Positions 6,932 to 36,171 of a stretch of DNA of 64,000 nt are shown piece after piece. This stretch comes from Alphaproteobacteria bacterium HGW-Alphaproteobacteria-4 (lineage in GTDB: Bacteria > Pseudomonadota > Alphaproteobacteria > Rhodobacterales > Rhodobacteraceae). The stretch spans positions 62,001-126,000 of the forward strand of contig PHEE01000011.1 in assembly GCA_002842855.1 (NCBI GenBank), written 5' to 3'. Made by a program: the position numbers and the translations under genes. Numbering within the stretch: position 1 is the first letter of the stretch; the number at the start of each line of letters is the position of its first letter. Under the pieces are notes generated by a model. That model did no database searches. It saw only the letters and a program-made list of their open reading frames with translations, and had not been told where the DNA came from.

Positions 6932-7641
6932 GCCAGCGCCGCCTTTTGGGCCGAAACCAGCGCCGCGCCCCCGAGTTCGGCCAGGTCGAGCAACTTGCCC
7001 ATCTCGTCGCGCGAAAAAGTTGCTCCTTCGGCTGACATCTGCACTTCGACAAGGCGCCCGCGCCCGGTAAGAATGAAATTGCCATCGGTGCCCGCCTCGC
7101 TGTCTTCGGCATAGTCGAGATCAAGCAGCGGTTGGCCCGCATAGATCCCGCACGAAACAGCGACAACGTGATCAACCAGCGGGTCCGAGGTGATCGCACC
7201 GGTCTTCAGAAGCGCGTTCACCGCCATCCGAAGCGCCACCCAGCCGCCGGTGATCGACGCGCAACGGGTGCCACCATCGGCCTGAATCACATCGCAGTCG
7301 ATCACGATCTGACGCTCTCCAAGCGCCCTCCGGTCAACCCCGGCGCGCAGCGCGCGGCCAATAAGGCGTTGAATTTCTTGTGTTCGTCCAGTCTGCTTGC
7401 CCGCCGCAGCCTCGCGCCGATTGCGCGAGTTCGTGGCGCGCGGCAACATGCCGTATTCGGCCGTCACCCAGCCCAGCCCCGACCCTTTCAAAAACTGCGG
7501 CGCCTTGTCCTCAATCGTGGCAGAGCAAAGCACATGGGTTCCGCCAGCCTTGATCAGGCACGAACCCTCGGCGTGACGCATCACCCCCGGCTCAATGACG
7601 ATCGGGCGCATTTCGTCCAAGTTTCGGCCAGAGGGGCGCAT
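6928..7641 (-). CDS. rph: Ribonuclease PH
   Basis: Phosphorolytic 3'-5' exoribonuclease that trims tRNA 3' ends. The chosen start is ATG 7641 (MRPSGRN), with AGGA placed just upstream; the open frame continues 35 codons further but that part has no family similarity. Hallmarks are SRNRRE-type residues near position 85, GGTRCASI and DLDYAEDS. The length of 237 residues is standard. It is divergent from hrcA across about 110 nt and heads rph-rdgB/ridA-hemW. Confidence 0.95.
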
Positions 7642-7750
7642 GGGTTGTCCTTTCCTGTTGCCCGGCCAATTACAGGCCCACCCTGCTTTGATGCAACCCC
7701 GATTGACGCGCCGCCGCCCTGCACCTACCTCGGGCGTAAGGAGCACGCCG

Positions 7751-8815
7751 ATGTCAGACGCAACCCTACTGCTTTCCGAGATGAACGACCGATCCCGCGA
7801 AGTTTTTCGGCGCGTGGTAGAGGCCTATCTTGACACCGGCGAGCCGGTCGGTTCGCGCACGCTCGCCCGATCGCTCAGCGAAAAGGTTTCGGCGGCGACC
7901 GTGCGCAATGTGATGCAGGACCTCGAATTCATGGGGCTGCTCGAGAGTCCGCACATTTCGGCAGGCAGGGTTCCGACACAGGCGGGACTACGGATCTTTG
8001 TCGACGGACTGATGGAGGTTGCACAGGTAACGGTCGCAGATCGCGAGATGATTGACGCCACGCTTGGCTCCAACGAGCCCGGCGTTGGCGCCCGCCTTGA
8101 CCGGGTCGGATCGGTCCTTTCGGCCATCACACGCGGCGCGAGCCTTGTTCTTACACCCAAGCGCGAAGCTCCAATCCGCCACATCGAATTTGTCAGCCTG
8201 GCTGCTGATCGTGCGCTTGTGGTGTTGGTTTTTGCCGATGGACAAGTGGAAAACCGCGTATTCACCCCGCCGCGCGGCCAAACCCCTTCATCCATGCGGG
8301 AAGCGGCCAACTTTCTAAACGCGATGGCAGAAGGCCGCACGATTTCCGAGTTGCGGGCTTACATCGCGCGCGAAATCGCACAGCGTCGGCAAGAACTCGA
8401 CATATTGGCGCGCGAAATGGTCGAAAGCGGGTTGGCGCTATGGGAAAACGCAGGTGAGCAACACGAACGGCTCATCGTGCGCGGTCGCGCCAATCTGATC
8501 GACGCGGATGCCGACGACCTTGATCGCGTGCGCAGCCTGTTTGACGAGCTTGAGCGCAAGCGCGACATCGTCGAGTTTCTCGACCTGGCCGAGGGCGGTG
8601 CCGGTGTGCGCATTTTTATTGGCTCCGAGAACAAGCTTTTCTCACTTTCGGGTTCCTCTCTGGTGGTCTCTCCTTATATGAACGCTGACCGAAAGATTAT
8701 CGGCGCTGTGGGTGTGATCGGGCCAACGCGGCTCAACTACGCGCGCATCGTGCCAATTGTAGACTATACGGCGCAACTGGTCGGGCGAATACTTTCTGAC
8801 CGGGGCAAGGGGTAA
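7751..8815 (+). CDS. hrcA: Heat-inducible transcriptional repressor HrcA
   Basis: Repressor of class I heat-shock genes that binds CIRCE elements. The N-terminal winged helix-turn-helix (about residues 1-80) includes the [13 protein letters not shown] recognition segment. The start ATG 7751 has AAGGAG 7 nt upstream, giving 354 residues. It is followed 4 nt later by grpE, the usual pairing. I saw no CIRCE repeat (TTAGCACTC-N9-GAGTGCTAA) upstream of it or grpE, so its operators must lie elsewhere, probably at groESL. Confidence 0.95.
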
Positions 8816-27048: not shown

Positions 27049-30000
27049 CTAGCCAGCACCAAGGGCAGCGCGCACCAGCGCCGGAACCGATTTTGCGCCA
27101 AGCTTTCGCATGATCGCCGCACGGTGGCTTTCAACCGTGCGCTGGCTGATTCCAAGCTCGAACGATATGATCTTGCTTGCTTTTCCGTCCAGAACCGCGG
27201 CGAGCACCTCGTGTTGGCGGGGGGTCAGCGCGGCCAGGGCGGCCTGCCGCGCCTGGCGACCATCGGACTGGCCGTCGGCGTCGGGTCTGCCCGTCAGCGC
27301 CGATTCGATGCGGCCCAGCAGATCCGCGCCGGAAACCGGCTTCTCGATGAAATCGACCGCACCCGCCCGCATCGCCGCAACGGCAATGGCAACGTCGCTG
27401 TGGCCGGTGATCATGATCGATGCCAGCGGCTCTGCCCGCTCCTTGAGCTTTTCAAGCAAATCGACACCGCTCAGGCCGGGAAGATAGGCGTCGATCAACA
27501 GGCAACCTCTGGTGCCGGGAACGTAACTGGCCAGAAAAGCCTCGGCGGTCGGATAGTCGTAAGCTGTATAGCCCGCCTCACGCAGTAGCGCGCGAAGCGC
27601 CAGCCGAAGTGCCTCATCATCATCGACCAGAAAAACCACGTCGCCAGCTGCGGCATGCTTGTCTGCGGCTGGCTGCATCTGTGGCGCGGGAAAGCCTGCT
27701 TGGGGGCCGAGCAGATCGGCCACCGCCCGCCCCAGCCTTTCAACCGTTACGGGCTTGGCCAGATGTAGCACGTCCTGCTGCGAAATGCGTCGCATCGCGA
27801 GGGTCGAGATGTCACCAGTCAGCACGATCGCGGGTACGTCGCGGTCAACCGCGCGGCGCAATTCTTCTGCCAGCGCCAACCCGTTCATGCCGCCTGGCAG
27901 GTTGTAGTCAGTCAGTACAAGGTCGGGCGCCGCTGCCGATTCGGCCACCAGCGCCAGCGCCGAGGGTCCGTCTTGCGCAAGCAATGTCTCATGCCCCCGG
28001 TCGCGCAACAGAAGGTCAAGCAGATCAAGCACTTCGGGGTCATCTTCGACGATCAAGATGCGCGCTTTGTCCGAAGTCGGATGTGCGCTTCTTGGCGCGG
28101 GTTCGGGGGGCGGGGCCACCACAGCCACTTGCTGGGGCGCGGTGTCATCAATCTCGATGGTAAAGACCGAGCCGCGACCCGGCGTCGACACGGCGTTGAT
28201 ACGGTGGCCCAAAAGGGCGCCAAGCCGCTGCACGATGCTCAGCCCCAGCCCCAACCCCTGGCTACGCGCGCGCGCGGGGTTGTTGATCTGATGGTATTCC
28301 TCGAAGACCGCCATGATTTCGCTTTCGGCAATGCCGATCCCGGTATCCCAGACCTCGATGACCACGCCCCGGCCGCGCCGACGACAGCCGATCAGAACTT
28401 TTCCGCGCGGAGTGTATTTGAGGGCGTTTGAAACCAGATTGCGCAGCATCTGCTCTAGCAAGTCCGGGTCGGAGTTGACAACATATCCGCAGGGAACCAT
28501 GCGCAACTGCAGCCCCTTAGCGCGCGCGGTATAGCCGAACTCTTTTATCAACCGCTCGAATATCTCGTTGATTGTGAAATCTGTTTTCTCGGGCCGAATG
28601 GCTCCCGCCTCAATCTGGTTGATGTCGAGCAGCACATCCAGCATGCGCGCCATGGCGCTGAGCGTTTCCCCCAGGCGTTCGACAAGGCCGCTTGCGCGCG
28701 CGTCGGTTACCGCAGTCTTCAAGAGCCCCTGCAAAATCACCAAAGTTTGCAGCGGCTGGCGCAGGTCATGGCTGGCGACGGCAAGAAAGCGGGTCTTGGC
28801 GTCGTTCGCGTGCTGGGCCACGCGCTCGGCATTGGCCAGCGCCTCATGGATCTTGTGCCGCTCGGTGATTTCCGAATAGGTGATTACAACGCCGTCAATC
28901 GTGTCGCTAGGGGTCTTGTAGGGCAGCACGCGGCGGTTGAACCAAGTTCCTCCCTGCCCCTCTATCTCGCGTTCGATCAGGGGTGTGCCATCGAGCACGC
29001 TCTGCGCGTCGGCCAGCAGTTCTTGGTCTGACGACAGTGGCGCGAGGTCGGCCAGCGGGCGCCCGATGTCACCGGGGCGCAGGCTGAACAGCGCGCGCGT
29101 GGCTGGCGTGAAAAAGCGGATATGCAGGTCAGGGTTGAGGAACAGTGTGGCGACATTGGTGCTGTAGAGCACGTTTTGCAGATATTCCGACGTGGTGCGC
29201 TGCTCTTCCAGGGTTTCCTGCAGCTGGGCATTGAGCGCCGTAAGTTCTTCATTAAGCGCCTGTAATTCTTCCTTCGAGGCGAGCAATTCTTCATTTGCCG
29301 CCTGATATTCCGCAGAAAGCGAAAGCGCGTCTTCACGCTGCGCGCTTTGGGCCGCGCGGGCCTCTGCCAACTCCTGAAGGGCTACGGCAAGTTCGGCGCG
29401 CAGCTCGGCCGCGCTCGCCTTGGGCGAAACTTTCGCCGGGGTTGTCACGCCGGGGCGATGATCGGGGGGTGCGGCTTTCATGGGTTCCTGACGTGTGTGC
29501 GAAACGGGTACGGGCAGTGCGCCACGGTCAGCACGGGGCAAGTTGGCAAACAGCCGCGCCGAATCGGAAACCACCTGAAAGCGCAGACTGGGTGCGCCAG
29601 CGGTCTCGGCCTTGCCAAGAAGCAGCTTTCCCCCCGGCACCAAAGCAAAATGAAAAGATTCCAGCAGCCGATCCTGTGCGGCGGGCGCAAGATAGATCAT
29701 CAGGTTGCGGCAACTGATCAGATCAAGCCGCGCAAAGGGCGGGTCTGCAAGCATGTCATGCTGCGCGAAGGTGATCGCTGCGCGCAGCCGGGGCTTGACC
29801 CTGAACCCGGCGCCATCACGCGTGAAATACCGCTCGAGGCGCGCCGCGCCAACCCCGGAAGTGTCGAGATAAACCCCTTCACGCGCCTCTGCCAAAGCGC
29901 CGGCATCAACATCCGAGGCAAAGATTTGAACGTTGCACGGCTTCGCTGCGGTTTCCAGCGCCTCGTCAATCAGCATCGCGATGCTGTAGGCTTCTTGCCC

Positions 30001-30951
30001 GCTGCTGCACCCGGCAATCCAGATGCGGATCGGCTGTGGCCCGGTGTGGCCGCGGATCAGCGCGGGAATGGTTTCGGTGGCCAGAAGATCGAACACCTCG
30101 GGATCGCGAAAAAAGCAGGTGACATTGATCAGCAGGTCCTGTGCCAGACGCTCCAGCTCGGCGCGGTCCGTCTGCAAAAGCGAAAGGTAAGCGCCCAGAT
30201 CGCGGCGCGCCAATGGCAAAAGGCTGATGCGCTGGTCGATCCGGCGTTGCAGGGTGCCGGTCTTGTAGTGGGTGAAGTCGTGCCGGGTTTTGGCGCGCAA
30301 CAGCGCAACAATATCCTGCAAAGTAGCGGGTGCTGCGGAATTGGCCCGGAGAGCGGGCGCGGCCTTGGCGAGCGCGACAAGTGCTGCCGCCAACCCGGCA
30401 ATTGGCGCAATCTGCGTTACATGTCCGGTTGCGAGCGCTGCGCGTGGCATGCCGTCAAACGCTGCTTCGGACGGGTCTTGTGCCAACACGGTGCCACCAC
30501 TCGCGCGGATCGCCGCCAACGAGGCGCTGCCGTCGGCGCCAGTGCCGGTCAACACCAGCGCCACCGCGCGGGGCCCCAGATCCAGCGCCATCGAGCGCAA
30601 GAGGTGGTCGAACGGCAGCCGCAGCGCCTGCCCGGTTTGCGCCGGGGCAAGGTGCAACATGCCCCCGGCAAGCGACATCAGCATACCCGGCGGGATCAGG
30701 TAAAGGTGATCGGGTTCGATCCGCACCCCTTCGACCGCCTGCGCCACAACCATGCCTGTGTGCCCGCGCAACAGTTCGGCCATCATGCTGGCGTGGCTGG
30801 GGTCGAGGTGCTGAACCAAAATGAACGCCATGCCGGTGCTGGCCGGGATCGCGTCGAACAGGCACTGGCACGCCGCCAGCCCGCCCGCCGAAGTGCCAAC
30901 GCCGACAACGGGAAATACGGGCTGGCTGCGTGAAGAATAGGTTGGCGACAT
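27049..30951 (-). CDS. CheB-CheR-PAS histidine kinase fused to two receiver domains and a LuxR-type HTH
   Basis: One 1300-residue frame carries an entire signalling chain. Approximate order: CheB methylesterase (1-190; GTSAGG, QHLDPSH), CheR methyltransferase (205-480; NVTCFFRD, AGCSSGQEAYS), a long coiled coil (515-600), PAS (600-705), HisKA with H-box ASHDLRQPLQT (His about 728), HATPase (N-box RNLVSNALKY, GLGLGLSIV), receiver 1 (963-1080; LTDYNLPG), receiver 2 (1105-1220; LIDAYLPG) and a FixJ/LuxR-type helix-turn-helix (1242-1300; LTPRQHEVL, ISQRTVESHRA). No transmembrane helix is seen. In most relatives the last receiver-HTH unit is a separate FixJ-like regulator. Target genes are unknown; the adjacent stress island is a natural candidate (inference). 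Confidence 0.92.
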   Translation of the reverse strand: MSPTYSSRSQPVFPVVGVGTSAGGLAACQCLFDAIPASTGMAFILVQHLDPSHASMMAELLRGHTGMVVAQAVEGVRIEPDHLYLIPPGMLMSLAGGMLHLAPAQTGQALRLPFDHLLRSMALDLGPRAVALVLTGTGADGSASLAAIRASGGTVLAQDPSEAAFDGMPRAALATGHVTQIAPIAGLAAALVALAKAAPALRANSAAPATLQDIVALLRAKTRHDFTHYKTGTLQRRIDQRISLLPLARRDLGAYLSLLQTDRAELERLAQDLLINVTCFFRDPEVFDLLATETIPALIRGHTGPQPIRIWIAGCSSGQEAYSIAMLIDEALETAAKPCNVQIFASDVDAGALAEAREGVYLDTSGVGAARLERYFTRDGAGFRVKPRLRAAITFAQHDMLADPPFARLDLISCRNLMIYLAPAAQDRLLESFHFALVPGGKLLLGKAETAGAPSLRFQVVSDSARLFANLPRADRGALPVPVSHTRQEPMKAAPPDHRPGVTTPAKVSPKASAAELRAELAVALQELAEARAAQSAQREDALSLSAEYQAANEELLASKEELQALNEELTALNAQLQETLEEQRTTSEYLQNVLYSTNVATLFLNPDLHIRFFTPATRALFSLRPGDIGRPLADLAPLSSDQELLADAQSVLDGTPLIEREIEGQGGTWFNRRVLPYKTPSDTIDGVVITYSEITERHKIHEALANAERVAQHANDAKTRFLAVASHDLRQPLQTLVILQGLLKTAVTDARASGLVERLGETLSAMARMLDVLLDINQIEAGAIRPEKTDFTINEIFERLIKEFGYTARAKGLQLRMVPCGYVVNSDPDLLEQMLRNLVSNALKYTPRGKVLIGCRRRGRGVVIEVWDTGIGIAESEIMAVFEEYHQINNPARARSQGLGLGLSIVQRLGALLGHRINAVSTPGRGSVFTIEIDDTAPQQVAVVAPPPEPAPRSAHPTSDKARILIVEDDPEVLDLLDLLLRDRGHETLLAQDGPSALALVAESAAAPDLVLTDYNLPGGMNGLALAEELRRAVDRDVPAIVLTGDISTLAMRRISQQDVLHLAKPVTVERLGRAVADLLGPQAGFPAPQMQPAADKHAAAGDVVFLVDDDEALRLALRALLREAGYTAYDYPTAEAFLASYVPGTRGCLLIDAYLPGLSGVDLLEKLKERAEPLASIMITGHSDVAIAVAAMRAGAVDFIEKPVSGADLLGRIESALTGRPDADGQSDGRQARQAALAALTPRQHEVLAAVLDGKASKIISFELGISQRTVESHRAAIMRKLGAKSVPALVRAALGAG

Positions 30952-31437: not shown

Positions 31438-31574
31438 ACTGCGCTGCGCGAAGAACAGGGCGGCGACTGACCATTCAGGCGCTGCCCCTTCCTCTTGTTC
31501 AACTGGCCGGGCGGCGTGCCAAGACCCTGCGTATTTTCCGAGTCTCCCGCCCGGTGCAAAATCAAGAGAGGTTA

Positions 31575-31657
31575 GGGCGTGTTCTGGTGCTGCGCCCTAC
31601 AAGTTCCTCCTGTCCCTCGGGAATACGTTACACTTGACGCAGCTCCAGAACATGCCC
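31575..31657. repeat. 20-bp imperfect inverted repeat
   Basis: The arms 31575-31594 and 31638-31657 are inverted copies of a GGGCGTGTTCTGG-like sequence with two mismatches, separated by 43 nt. It sits in the 294-nt gap between the DUF1344-like and DUF3309 genes, which otherwise contains nothing I can name. It could be a long hairpin in an mRNA leader or a remnant of a small mobile element. Confidence 0.55.
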
Positions 31658-31731: not shown

Positions 31732-31890
31732 ATGACACTTTCAACCATCCTCATCATCATCCTCATCCTTGCGTTGGTGGGTGCGTTTCCCGCCTGGCCG
31801 CACAGCGTCAAATGGGGCTACGGCCCGTCGGGGGTGCTCGGCATCCTTCTGATTGTGGTGCTGGTGCTGCTTTTGACCGGGCGCATGTAG
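31732..31890 (+). CDS. DUF3309 family small membrane protein
   Basis: A 52-residue protein: MTLSTILIIILILALVGAF, then WPHSVKWGYGPSG, then a second hydrophobic helix and a short basic end. This is the exact plan of DUF3309: two transmembrane helices around a W-GYGPSG loop. ATG 31732 has AGGAG 6 nt upstream. Function is unknown; such proteins often sit in stress-response clusters, as here. Confidence 0.9.
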   Translation: MTLSTILIIILILALVGAFPAWPHSVKWGYGPSGVLGILLIVVLVLLLTGRM

Positions 31891-31965: not shown

Positions 31966-32274
31966 ATGGACAACAAGAACCCCGTAACCGCGATCGAGAA
32001 CAGCACCGAGTTCAAGGCGATGATGGCTGATCTGGCAGCGCTGCGCGCCGATGTGGCGCAACTGGCCGGGCATGTGAAGGCCAGCACGGTAAGTGCCGCC
32101 GAAACTGCCGCCGGGCAGGTCAGCGCCGAGGCCACGCGCCTGATGGGCACGGTATCCGATGCTTCCAAGACTTCGGTCAAAGCAGTCGAGCGGCAGATCG
32201 ACGCGCACCCGCTGGTCAGCCTGATGCTGGCCTTCAGCTTGGGCTTCGTAGGTAGCCGCTTGCTGGCGAAATGA
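31966..32274 (+). CDS. DUF883 family protein (ElaB/YqjD-like)
   Basis: A 102-residue protein: a soluble amphipathic helix (about 15-70, Ala/Glu-rich), then the motif ERQIDAHPL and a C-terminal transmembrane helix ending GSRLLAK. This is the DUF883/ElaB-YqjD architecture, which in E. coli anchors ribosomes at the membrane in stationary phase. It is followed by a YqjE-like gene, the same pairing as E. coli yqjD-yqjE. Confidence 0.88.
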   Translation: MDNKNPVTAIENSTEFKAMMADLAALRADVAQLAGHVKASTVSAAETAAGQVSAEATRLMGTVSDASKTSVKAVERQIDAHPLVSLMLAFSLGFVGSRLLAK

Positions 32275-32294
32275 AACTGCTCGGAGGCCGGATC

Positions 32295-32711
32295 ATGGAA
32301 AATCCTTTCGCTCAAGTGCTCTGTCAGCGCGCCTGGCAACGGATTTCGGCTATGGGCCTCGAGGCGCGCCGCGCGGCGGTTGACGCAGGCGTGGTGGCGG
32401 CAGCGGGGCTGATGGTGGTAGCCGCAATCGGCTGCGCGGTGGCCGCGCTGTGGTTGCTGCTTGCGCCGCTCGTTGGTGCTGCGGGGGCCGCACTTTCGGC
32501 GGCGGCCGCACTGTTGGCGATGGGCGGCACGATCCTTGGGGTGCGCGCGATCGTGGCCCGAGGCAGGGCGAGGCCCGCCGCAAACTCCGGGCGCGATTGT
32601 CAGGACCTGGCGGAAGCCGCGCAGCTCAGCTTCAGCGCCAACAAGGCGGCGCTGCTTTTGGCGGCACTTGCCGCAGGCGCCGCAGCCGCTGATGCACGAC
32701 GGCACACATAG
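32295..32711 (+). CDS. YqjE-like / phage holin superfamily membrane protein
   Basis: A 138-residue protein with two strongly hydrophobic helices in the middle (about residues 30-52 and 57-78) and amphipathic ends. This fits the YqjE/holin-superfamily III proteins that follow DUF883 genes. The start is taken at ATG 32295, which has GGAGG 7 nt upstream. An ATG at 32271 overlapping the DUF883 stop would add 8 residues. Precise role unknown. Confidence 0.75.
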   Translation: MENPFAQVLCQRAWQRISAMGLEARRAAVDAGVVAAAGLMVVAAIGCAVAALWLLLAPLVGAAGAALSAAAALLAMGGTILGVRAIVARGRARPAANSGRDCQDLAEAAQLSFSANKAALLLAALAAGAAAADARRHT

Positions 32712-32803
32712 GCTGCTGCGCCCAAACCCGACACCCTGGCGTGTCCGGGGGTCAAGAGACATGCTTCCCACGGCCAAATCTGGCCCGATCAAGGTTATCC
32801 ACA

Positions 32804-33364
32804 ATGTTGATGCCGCCCCAGACCACCGCCTTTACGGCGGGGCTTATCGCCGCGATGCCGGGCCTCAGGCGATATGCGCTGTCGCTTTGCCGCACGGCCG
32901 ATGGCGCCGACGATCTTGTGCAGGAAACGCTCTACAAGGCCTGGTCGCAGCAAGCGCGGTTTCAGGTGGGCAGTAATCTGAATGCGTGGCTCTTCACCAT
33001 TCTGCGCAACAGCTTTTTCAACCAGACGCGCAAGCGCAAGCGCGAAATGCAAGATGCCGATGGCGTTTACTCGGCCCGCCTCAGCACTTCGCCCACGCAC
33101 GATGCGGCGCTTGATCTGCGCGACGTGTGCAATGCTCTTGCGACCCTGCCGGCACCGCAACGCGAGGCGCTGCTGCTGGTGGGCGCGCTGGGCCACTCGT
33201 ACTACGAGGCGGCGGCGCTGGCCGGGGCCGAAACCGGCACCATCAAAAGCCGCGTCAGCCGCGCGCGACAGCAGATTTTGGGCATGATGCAACTGCTCGG
33301 GCCGATGGACTTTGCCGCCACCCCGCCCGCCACGGCACCGACCCCGCTTTGCGCCTACGTCTGA
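32804..33364 (+). CDS. ECF sigma factor, EcfG-like
   Basis: Sigma-70 family factor with region 2 (YALSLCRTADGADDLVQETLYKAW, read about residues 20-45) and region 4 (QREALLLVGALG ... GTIKSRVSRAR). The VGALG-YxEAA pattern is typical of EcfG, the general stress sigma of alphaproteobacteria. No NepR or PhyR is adjacent. The start could be ATG 32804 or 32810; AAGG lies upstream. Two GGAAC-N16-TGTT sites 1 kb downstream fit this class. The 92 nt before it hold no gene. Confidence 0.88.
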   Translation: MLMPPQTTAFTAGLIAAMPGLRRYALSLCRTADGADDLVQETLYKAWSQQARFQVGSNLNAWLFTILRNSFFNQTRKRKREMQDADGVYSARLSTSPTHDAALDLRDVCNALATLPAPQREALLLVGALGHSYYEAAALAGAETGTIKSRVSRARQQILGMMQLLGPMDFAATPPATAPTPLCAYV

Positions 33365-33389: not shown

Positions 33390-33578
33390 CTAGTTGATGG
33401 TCAGGCCGCTGATGTTGCCAATGATGCCGAACACCTGCAGCAACCAGATCACCACGCCGATCACCACCACGACATTCAGGATGCTTTTGATCTTGGCATC
33501 CATCGGAATGTAGGTGTTCACCAGCCAAAGCAGCACGCCAACAACAACAAGTACGATCAACAGATTGATAACGGGCAT
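33390..33578 (-). CDS. Thivi_2564-like small membrane protein
   Basis: A 62-residue protein with two hydrophobic helices (about 3-20 and 30-50) separated by NTYIPMDAKIKSILN. This matches the Thivi_2564 family of tiny two-helix membrane proteins. The start ATG 33578 has GAAGGAA upstream; the open frame extends 17 codons further without support. It follows the SH3 gene by 69 nt and is probably cotranscribed with it. Confidence 0.85.
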   Translation of the reverse strand: MPVINLLIVLVVVGVLLWLVNTYIPMDAKIKSILNVVVVIGVVIWLLQVFGIIGNISGLTIN

Positions 33579-33647
33579 AGCGGATTTCCTTCGGGGTTTG
33601 GTGTGCGGCACCGGCATTCGGCGCCGCACATGGTTTTGCGGAGCGGG

Positions 33648-34307
33648 TCAGCGAACGATATAGACAACCTGACGGGTCGGGGTATCGACCAGAACCGGCA
33701 GGCCGTTAACGTAGATGTAGGAATAGGTGCTGCCAGGAACCGGGTAGAGCGTTACCGGCTCGGGAATGCCAGCGCCTACCACGACCTCGCCATCGAGGTA
33801 GATGGTCTCGACCGGGTTGCCCTGCACGTAGGCGATGTACTGCGGCTCGGGCGGGGTCGCGGCAGCTACGCCGGCGGTGGCGCCGACGATGCCGCCGATC
33901 ACCGCGCCTATCGGGCCAGCGATCAGGGCGCCTGCCAAGGCGCCCGCCGCGCCGCCGGCGAGGGCGGCGTCATCGGGGTTGGCGGTGTAGGTGACGCTAT
34001 TCAGCACCAGCTTCGGCCCGACCACGGTCAGCGCCACCGGTGCATTGTCGACGTTGGCGGTCAGATCGTCGCCCGCCGCCAAGCCTTCGATGCCCGCGTA
34101 GCTGACCTTGCACCAGGTGGCGCCCTCAAGGCAGCCATCAACCGCCACAGTTTCGTTTGCCGGGATCACGCCACGGATCTTGTAGATCGGGCCGGGGCCC
34201 GCGCGCAGGTTGAGGTCGGTCCAGGCGGTCGCCTGGGTTTCGGCAAAGGCTGCCGTGGCCAACAGCAGGCCAACCATCGAGAGGCCGAGAACTTTCTTGG
34301 CAAACAT
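33648..34307 (-). CDS. SH3 and DUF1236 domain exported protein
   Basis: A 219-residue secreted protein. It has a signal peptide (residues 1-22, cut after AAFA), a bacterial SH3 domain (about 27-80; LNLRAGPG, CKVSYAGIEGLA), a glycine/alanine-rich zipper (about 110-150), and a C-terminal DUF1236 segment (YIYVNGLPVLVD, RQVVYIV). Such proteins are periplasmic or envelope-associated. A candidate EcfG-type promoter lies 65 nt upstream. Confidence 0.85.
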   Translation of the reverse strand: MFAKKVLGLSMVGLLLATAAFAETQATAWTDLNLRAGPGPIYKIRGVIPANETVAVDGCLEGATWCKVSYAGIEGLAAGDDLTANVDNAPVALTVVGPKLVLNSVTYTANPDDAALAGGAAGALAGALIAGPIGAVIGGIVGATAGVAAATPPEPQYIAYVQGNPVETIYLDGEVVVGAGIPEPVTLYPVPGSTYSYIYVNGLPVLVDTPTRQVVYIVR

Positions 34308-34371
34308 CGGATTTTCTTTAACTCGGCGGCCAGTCGCTCAAGTTGTTGCGCTGGCCAGCTACCACCTTCAC

Positions 34372-34396
34372 AACACCCGTGGGGCCGGAACGTTCC
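34372..34396 (-). promoter_or_regulatory. Candidate EcfG-type promoter (minus strand)
   Basis: GGAAC, 16 nt, TGTT on the minus strand, 65 nt before the SH3/DUF1236 start. The EcfG consensus is GGAAC-N16/17-CGTT, so the -10 has one mismatch. The -35 element lies in the palindrome GGAACGTTCC. Confidence 0.5.
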
Positions 34397-34420
34397 AAAG
34401 AAATGCTGGCGTCAGGCGTC

Positions 34421-34445
34421 GGAACCAAACCGGGCGCCGCGTGTT
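34421..34445 (+). promoter_or_regulatory. Candidate EcfG-type promoter (plus strand)
   Basis: GGAAC, 16 nt, TGTT on the plus strand, 78 nt before the OmpA-family gene. Same spacing and same single -10 mismatch as the minus-strand site. Confidence 0.5.
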
Positions 34446-34523: not shown

Positions 34524-36171
34524 ATGAAACGCAATTTCTACAAGTCGACCACCGCGCTGGTCATGACCCTTTCGCTCTTTCAACCCGTTGTCGCAATGGC
34601 GCAGGAGCCCGTGACGATCGAATGCACGCCCCAACTGATCACAGATGGCGTGCCCTGCCTCGACCCGCTTACGAAGCTGCTGGTTGCTCCGCAGGCGGAT
34701 CTGAAGAAAGACAACAAGCCAGACAAGGCCGACAAGGCACCTAGGCCGCTGGCTGCAGAAGAGGCACAGGCCGCAGCTGCGGCAGCTGAAGCCGAGAAAG
34801 CCGCCGCAAAAGCGCTGGCTGACGAAGCCAAGGCCCGCCGCAGCCGAAGCCGAGCGCGCAAAAGCCGCCGACGATAGCGCCGCCGCAAAGGCGTTGGCGG
34901 ATGCTGAGGCGGCCGCCGCAGCCGAAGCCGCAGCTACCGCAGAAGCCGCAGCCGCTGCCCAGGCCGCTACCGCTGCCGAGGCAAAGCAAAAGGCCGATGA
35001 TGCTGCCGCACGCGCGCAAGCCGAGGCAGCGAAGCCGTTGGTTTTGCCGCCTTGCGACCCGCTGCTTCCCGGTGTTGTCTGCGGGGCCGCGGAAGTGCTT
35101 CCGGAGGCACCGCAGGCGAGCGTACCCGATGTGCCCACCGCCGCGCCCGAGACCGAAGCCGCGAAGGCCGCCGATAGTGTGGTTCCCGAGGCAGATGTCG
35201 TGACCCGGACCGTGACCGAATCCGATCACCGCTCGAGCAGACAAGAGTTTGACAACGCCGTGAGTGCCGCACCAAAAGCCGACAGCGGCGGCCTGACCAA
35301 TCTTGAAAAAGCGGGTCTGTTGCTGCTTGGCGCGGTGGTCGTTGGCGCGATCCTGAAGAACAATGAAAAGGTCGTTGCCAACACCGGTGATCGCGTGATC
35401 GTCCAGGACCAATACGGCGACTACCGTGTCTACAAGGACGATGACGTGTTGCTGATGCAGCCGGGCGCGACCGTGCGCACCGAGACCTTTGGTGACGGCT
35501 CGACCCGGTCTTTCGTGACCCGCGCCGACGGCACCCAGATCGTGACCATCCGCGATGCCCAAGGTCGGGTGCAGCGACGCGTGCATGTCGGCGTGGACGG
35601 GCTTGAAACGACGCTGATCGATGATACGCGAACTGTCGAAGTGGTTGACCTGCGCACGCTGCCGAAGCCCGAACCGCGTCTGTTCAATTACGTCGCTACC
35701 GCCGACAATGATGCCCTGCGCCGCGCGCTTCTGGCTGCCGACCAGCGGCAGGCGGACCGTTCGTTCAGCCTGCGCCAGATCCGCGACATTCGCGAAGTGC
35801 GCGCGTTGGCGCTCGAGATCAATCTTGAGGCAATCACCTTCGAGACCGGTTCAGCCGCGATTCCGCCTGTTCAGGCAGAACGGTTGCGCCAGTTGGGCAG
35901 CCTCATGGCTGATCTGGTGGCGCTTGATCCGCGCGAGGTGTTCCTGATCGAAGGCCATACCGACGCCATCGGCGAACCGGCCTACAACCTTGCCCTGTCT
36001 GACCGGCGTGCCGAAACCGTTGCGCTCGCGCTTTCCGAGTATTTCGGCGTTCCGCCCGAAAACATGGTGGTGCAGGGCTATGGCGAGCAATTCCTGAAAA
36101 TCCGCACCCTCGACGCCGAACGCCTGAATCGTCGCGTGGCGGTGCGAAGGATCACCGGGTTGCTGAACTAG
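34524..36171 (+). pseudogene. OmpA family protein gene with a one-base frameshift
   Basis: The first frame (from ATG 34524) gives a signal peptide cut after VVAMA and an Ala/Glu-rich stretch, and stops at 34877. The second frame continues the same Ala/Glu-rich stretch (AAEAERAKAADDSAAAK), then a transmembrane-like segment (EKAGLLLLGAVVVGAI), a beta-rich middle part, and a C-terminal OmpA domain (FLIEGHTDAIG, NRRVAVRRI). Removing one C from CCC at 34834-34836 restores a single frame. The second frame alone has no ATG and no signal peptide. This is a recent mutation or a sequencing error. An 18-bp direct repeat (34835-34852 and 34913-34930) lies at the site. Confidence 0.85.

Follow-up and report, generated by a model that had tools for sequence, protein, structure and literature searches.

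Two copies of GGAAC-N16-TGTT, one per strand and each facing its own gene, lie within a single 216-bp intergenic region between an SH3/DUF1236 envelope protein gene and an OmpA-family gene. They are most likely the -35 and -10 boxes of back-to-back EcfG-type (ECF15-like) promoters read by the sigma factor encoded about 1 kb away, a reading to which we give a probability of about 0.72. A sequence-only reading of this DNA had called them EcfG-type promoters, and that assignment is supported because the sites are conserved in the genus, recur before SH3/DUF1236 genes outside it (11 of 28 homologues), and have an EcfG-like sigma gene as a near neighbour. Its further proposal, direct control of both genes by the local sigma factor, is plausible and likely, and local-sigma control is the most economical reading.

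Both sites were located exactly where that reading had put them. On the minus strand, the predicted promoter of the SH3/DUF1236 gene (34372-34396) has its GGAAC at 34396-34392 and its TGTT at 34375-34372, while the predicted promoter of the OmpA-family gene on the plus strand (34421-34445) has these boxes at 34421-34425 and 34442-34445; the spacer is 16 nt in each. From the -10 box to the ATG the distance is 64 nt on the SH3/DUF1236 side and 78 nt on the OmpA side. The -35 box at both sites is the GGAAC of EcfG-type promoters, and the spacers fall within the 16-17 nt of this class, both being 16 nt in this genome and the three relatives having 17 and 16 nt. The -10 box at both sites is TGTT, departing from the consensus CGTT. 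Since TGTT is a documented functional EcfG variant, as described in the part of the Sphingopyxis study drawn on here (PMC7083833), this is a departure from the consensus and not an exclusion. The CGTT version of the motif (spacer 16-17) had no match in the window, that is, the whole 64-kb stretch of DNA analysed, and no sigma-70-like site was found in the SH3-OmpA intergenic region.

Both flanking genes are likely targets. The SH3/DUF1236 gene (33648-34307, minus strand) encodes a 219-aa protein matching Pfam PF08239 and PF06823 above cut-off. Downstream of it on the same strand is a gene for a Thivi_2564-family small membrane protein (33390-33629; NF041949 above cut-off), which may share its transcript. 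The OmpA-family gene (34524-36171, plus strand; Pfam OmpA) is interrupted in this assembly, with open reading frames at 34524-34877 and 34894-36171 and the break in an alanine-rich stretch. The corresponding frames are uninterrupted in three relatives (623, 605, and 622 aa), and the split is either an assembly error or a real break. A hairpin in the SH3/DUF1236 leader (34328-34356, minus strand) folds in four genomes, with leader energies of -18.0 to -22.2 kcal/mol and one two-sided change. As a conserved structure it was set aside: its covariation was reached by 248 of 500 shuffles, which is not significant, and it had no Rfam match.

Conservation was followed in a genus sample of four genomes, this one (G000) and three relatives (G001-G003). 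Both sites are kept in all four, facing the same genes. On the SH3 side the spacers are 16, 17, 17, and 17 nt, with 64, 65, 66, and 65 nt to the ATG; on the OmpA side the spacer is 16 nt throughout, with 78, 78, 80, and 75 nt to the ATG. The -10 box is TGTT in 8/8 sites and the -35 box is exactly GGAAC in 7/8, the exception being GCAAC at the OmpA site of G002. Pairwise comparison gave 0 differences in 54 box letters for the SH3 site and 3 in 54 for the OmpA site, against 26/51 and 44/96 in the respective spacers. When columns were compared over the SH3 and OmpA promoters and a third on contig 19 (leaving out the SH3 row of G000, with its spacer one base shorter), 1/27 box columns varied versus 33/50 spacer columns (Fisher p 3.7e-8). 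The contig 19 site is conserved in 4/4 genus genomes, about 35 nt (read by eye) before a short open reading frame. Another conserved site, on contig 2, was found in 3/4, 60 nt before the gene for a 72-aa protein whose glycine-zipper match falls below threshold. Both have TGTT, and the two promoters share the form GGAACC...GTGTT. The search for GGAACCN15-16YGTT returned 55 sites, and surroundings were inspected for 24 of them, the home locus included.

Other aspects of the arrangement did not carry over to the relatives. The identical spacing of the two copies holds in this genome (16 and 16) and fails in the three others (17 on the SH3 side, 16 on the OmpA side), so it was rejected as a sign of shared design. 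The palindrome GGAACGTTCC, said to overlap the minus copy, is absent from the other three genus genomes and was dismissed as a functional element, not being conserved. Nor do the two -35 boxes stand a set distance apart, the gap being 24 nt here versus 45, 43, and 42 nt in the relatives, and this idea was likewise rejected.

Outside the genus, the evidence comes from the SH3/DUF1236 side. Searched against 295 family genomes, this protein gave 40 matches in 38 genomes, the genus included, and promoters were checked at 28 loci of other genera, those whose DNA was available. A sense GGAAC-N16/17-YGTT site was present in 11/28, at distances of 53-97 nt measured to where the match begins and not to an annotated start codon, and an antisense site in none; the strict site was missing in 17/28. 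Seven of these sites have CGTT as -10 box and four have TGTT. In control windows of the same 28 loci, which overlap each other and are mostly coding, the site occurred in 12/665 (binomial p about 1e-12, with windows treated as independent). As to a joint loss of the SH3 site and of NepR, nearly all SH3/DUF1236 homologues with known NepR status come with NepR.

The sigma gene lies about 1 kb from the promoter pair, at 32804-33364 on the plus strand; its frame is open from a GTG at 32741, and 32804 is the likely, though not fixed, start. The protein matches PhyR_sigma2, Sigma70_r2, and Sigma70_r4_2 above the Pfam cut-off, and its best NCBIfam match is NF009199, below that model's cut-off. Its best solved relative is 5uxx_A (163 bits; the next reaches 67 bits), which we take to be an EcfG-type sigma factor bound to NepR. 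Among 246 other family genomes, its best matches are EcfG proteins in nepR/phyR loci, about 50% identical. At the sigma-homologue loci outside the genus, NepR-like frames were recognised by pattern in 19/28 and PhyR-like frames in 23/28, with phyR divergent; in 26/28 the 500 nt before the sigma match contain one or more GGAAC-N15-18-YGTT sites, counting both strands. In a tree, the four genus sigmas fall together (97/93) and with EcfG, apart from both the sigma-like domains of PhyR and a second ECF sigma of the genus. As judged from sequence, the genus sigmas group with EcfG, inside or beside it, and the local protein classifies as an EcfG-like (ECF15-like) sigma factor. An arginine before the AWLF motif is present in 16/16 aligned family EcfG proteins and is replaced by N, N, G, and H in the four genus sigmas. 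A TGTT-specific sigma arising from this replacement is a weak idea at best, because four of the 11 sites of other genera also have TGTT.

Three genes precede the sigma gene in a plus-strand run that begins with a DUF3309 gene (31732-31890; PF11752) and continues with two small open reading frames (31966-32274 and 32271-32711); all are present in 4/4 genus loci. The two small frames had no Pfam or NCBIfam match and nothing NepR-like in them. EcfG factors usually show positive feedback through an autoregulated ecfG operon. No GGAAC-N15-18-YGTT site was found upstream of the DUF3309-sigma run in any of the four genomes; autoregulation of the run is thus not supported, and the feedback usual for EcfG is missing. 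Before the run, at about 31540-31620, two blocks are nearly invariant in the four genomes, CCGAGTCT and GTGTTCTGG, which are perhaps a regulator site. Divergent from the run, and with synteny of both kept in 4/4 genus loci, is a gene for a 1300-aa CheB-CheR-PAS-HisKA-HATPase-receiver-receiver-LuxR fusion (27049-30951, minus strand; Pfam), a candidate input to the sigma factor.

Several alternatives need to be weighed. In one of them the boxes match by chance, in a region between genes that is rich in GC, and the true promoters are of another kind. The motif count by itself is no evidence for promoters, since neither the window nor the genome is enriched in the strict motif: with spacers of 16-18 nt the window holds 3 matches versus 0.91 expected (3 or more in 6/100 shuffles), TGTT sites with spacers of 15-18 nt number 62 genome-wide versus 85 for the reversed control pattern, and GGAACCN15-16YGTT occurs 15 times in this genome versus 38 reversed. 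The third match in the window (8630-8656, minus strand, spacer 18) is nearly identical in G001 and G002 among the matches listed; it lies within a 406-aa open reading frame (7595-8815), so its conservation is probably that of coding sequence. The arrangement, unlike the count, is beyond chance: a site on each strand of the intergenic region (YGTT -10 box, spacer 16-17) was reached in at most 1/4000 shuffles (0.00025) for each of the four genomes. Given that the four genomes agree in orientation and distance, that the boxes are conserved next to diverged spacers, and that such sites stand before the SH3/DUF1236 gene in other genera too, coincidence is a very improbable explanation. It is also improbable, if slightly less so, that the local sigma reads just one promoter of the pair and that the other is decaying or read by a different factor. 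The OmpA side would be the one in doubt, as the family-wide evidence covers the SH3/DUF1236 side and the OmpA site, which has GCAAC in G002, is followed in the genus alone; against this, its TGTT and 16-nt spacer are kept in 4/4 genus genomes, and GCAAC is the second commonest -35 box among Sphingopyxis EcfG promoters in the portion of that work available (PMC7083833).

That both sites are real promoters read by another ECF sigma factor is a more serious objection, though still an unlikely one. At least one further ECF sigma besides the local one is encoded in this genome, a second ECF gene, with a PhyR_sigma2-like region, occurs in all four genus genomes, and a GGAACTT -35 box is also used by RpoE of Escherichia coli, according to the part of a review that was available (PMC8103513). 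However, no GGAAC-N15-18-YGTT site was found within the 9-kb loci of the second ECF gene in the four genomes, the tree places the local sigma with EcfG and the second ECF apart, and the site also occurs before SH3/DUF1236 genes of genera whose EcfG loci are canonical. The second ECF gene, in the two genomes inspected, adjoins a 250-260 aa open reading frame that is a candidate anti-sigma factor. Counting against the EcfG-type reading itself are the TGTT -10 box throughout, the lack of motif enrichment, the 17/28 homologues missing the strict site, the sigma run with no such site before it, the presence of at least one other ECF sigma, the NF009199 match below cut-off, and a genus represented by four genomes only.

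If the local sigma does read the pair, then once active it would bring RNA polymerase to two divergent starts, a leftward one about 60 nt ahead of the SH3/DUF1236 gene and a rightward one about 70 nt ahead of the OmpA gene, and both envelope proteins would be raised together. In this scheme we infer the transcription starts, the dependence on sigma, the co-induction, and any stress signal.

The regulators that usually accompany EcfG were not detected in the genus. NepR was found in 0/4 genus genomes with the Pfam profile and in 0/4 with a family profile that recovered it in 5/5 control genomes; neither profile matched beside the sigma gene. Full-length PhyR was found in 0/4 with a profile that gave partial matches only (best 2.1e-10), versus full-length matches at 1e-129 or better in 5/5 controls; for the NepR and PhyR profiles alike, three of the five controls had contributed rows. 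Across the family, NepR was matched in 111/246 genomes, a few of these matches being weak and four lying in genomes without a strong EcfG match, while a strong EcfG match was present in 112 genomes, 107 of which had a listed NepR match as well. The five others are G000 and G003, both of which were searched, and G081, G248, and G249, whose status comes from an incomplete listing. NepR is short and diverse, so a divergent copy in the genus could have been overlooked, and anti-sigma factors are described as poorly conserved in the part of the review cited above that was available (PMC8103513). The genus apparently keeps EcfG without its usual NepR/PhyR switch. A literature search, largely without full texts, found no earlier report of EcfG without NepR/PhyR in Rhodobacteraceae, nor of DUF1236 in the EcfG stress response.

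A broader and more tentative proposal, which we consider possible but doubtful, is that a lone EcfG with its partner switch removed is under some other control and uses TGTT promoters to run a narrow regulon of envelope genes. That control would perhaps be transcriptional, exerted by the divergent CheB-CheR-kinase-LuxR fusion, and the regulon would comprise the OmpA and SH3/DUF1236 proteins, a short membrane protein, and a glycine-zipper lipoprotein. If true, a general stress response would have been reduced to a dedicated envelope programme, and a natural orphan EcfG would raise the question of how a sigma factor stays in check without its known inhibitor.

Compared with known systems, the promoters resemble the alphaproteobacterial EcfG (ECF15) form GGAAC-N16-CGTT in their -35 box, spacer length, upstream position, and envelope targets, and differ in that all genus sites recognised as conserved have TGTT in place of CGTT. 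In Sphingopyxis granuli, EcfG promoters have a conserved GGAAC and a flexible -10 box in which CGTT is commonest; the envelope gene yiaD has a TGTT box, is EcfG-dependent, and works in vitro, where TGTT is weaker than CGTT and a change to CGTT strengthens the promoter (PMC7083833). In Sphingomonas melonis the motif is GGAAC-N17-20-GTT, with sites clustered no more than 100 bp from coding starts; the top targets include outer membrane genes, and one top site ends in CGTGTT (PMC6599016). The EcfG1 motif of Rhizobium etli is GGAAC-N16-CGTT (PMC3892343).

The PhyR-NepR-EcfG systems share with this locus an EcfG-like sigma factor and envelope genes as likely targets; they include that of Rhodobacter sphaeroides, with a locus of phyR, a nepR-like gene, and ecfG, and a PhyR that acts in membrane stress, as reported in the part of that study available (PMC5830050). 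In contrast, the genus lacks a detected NepR or full-length PhyR, and its sigma gene shares a run with DUF3309 and not with nepR, a run that no GGAAC site precedes. EcfG-type sigma genes without nepR or phyR adjoining are also described, in the material accessible to us, for EcfG2 of Rhizobium etli (PMC3892343) and of Sphingopyxis, whose ecfG2, like the genus run, has no EcfG promoter (PMC7083833). Both of these organisms have a canonical EcfG and NepR elsewhere in the genome, unlike the present one, in which neither a second canonical copy nor NepR was detected. The promoters add a little-known Rhodobacteraceae genus to those with EcfG-type control of envelope genes, and they indicate SH3/DUF1236 genes as recurrent EcfG-type targets across the family. 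As promoters they are unremarkable; what deserves following up is the lone EcfG.
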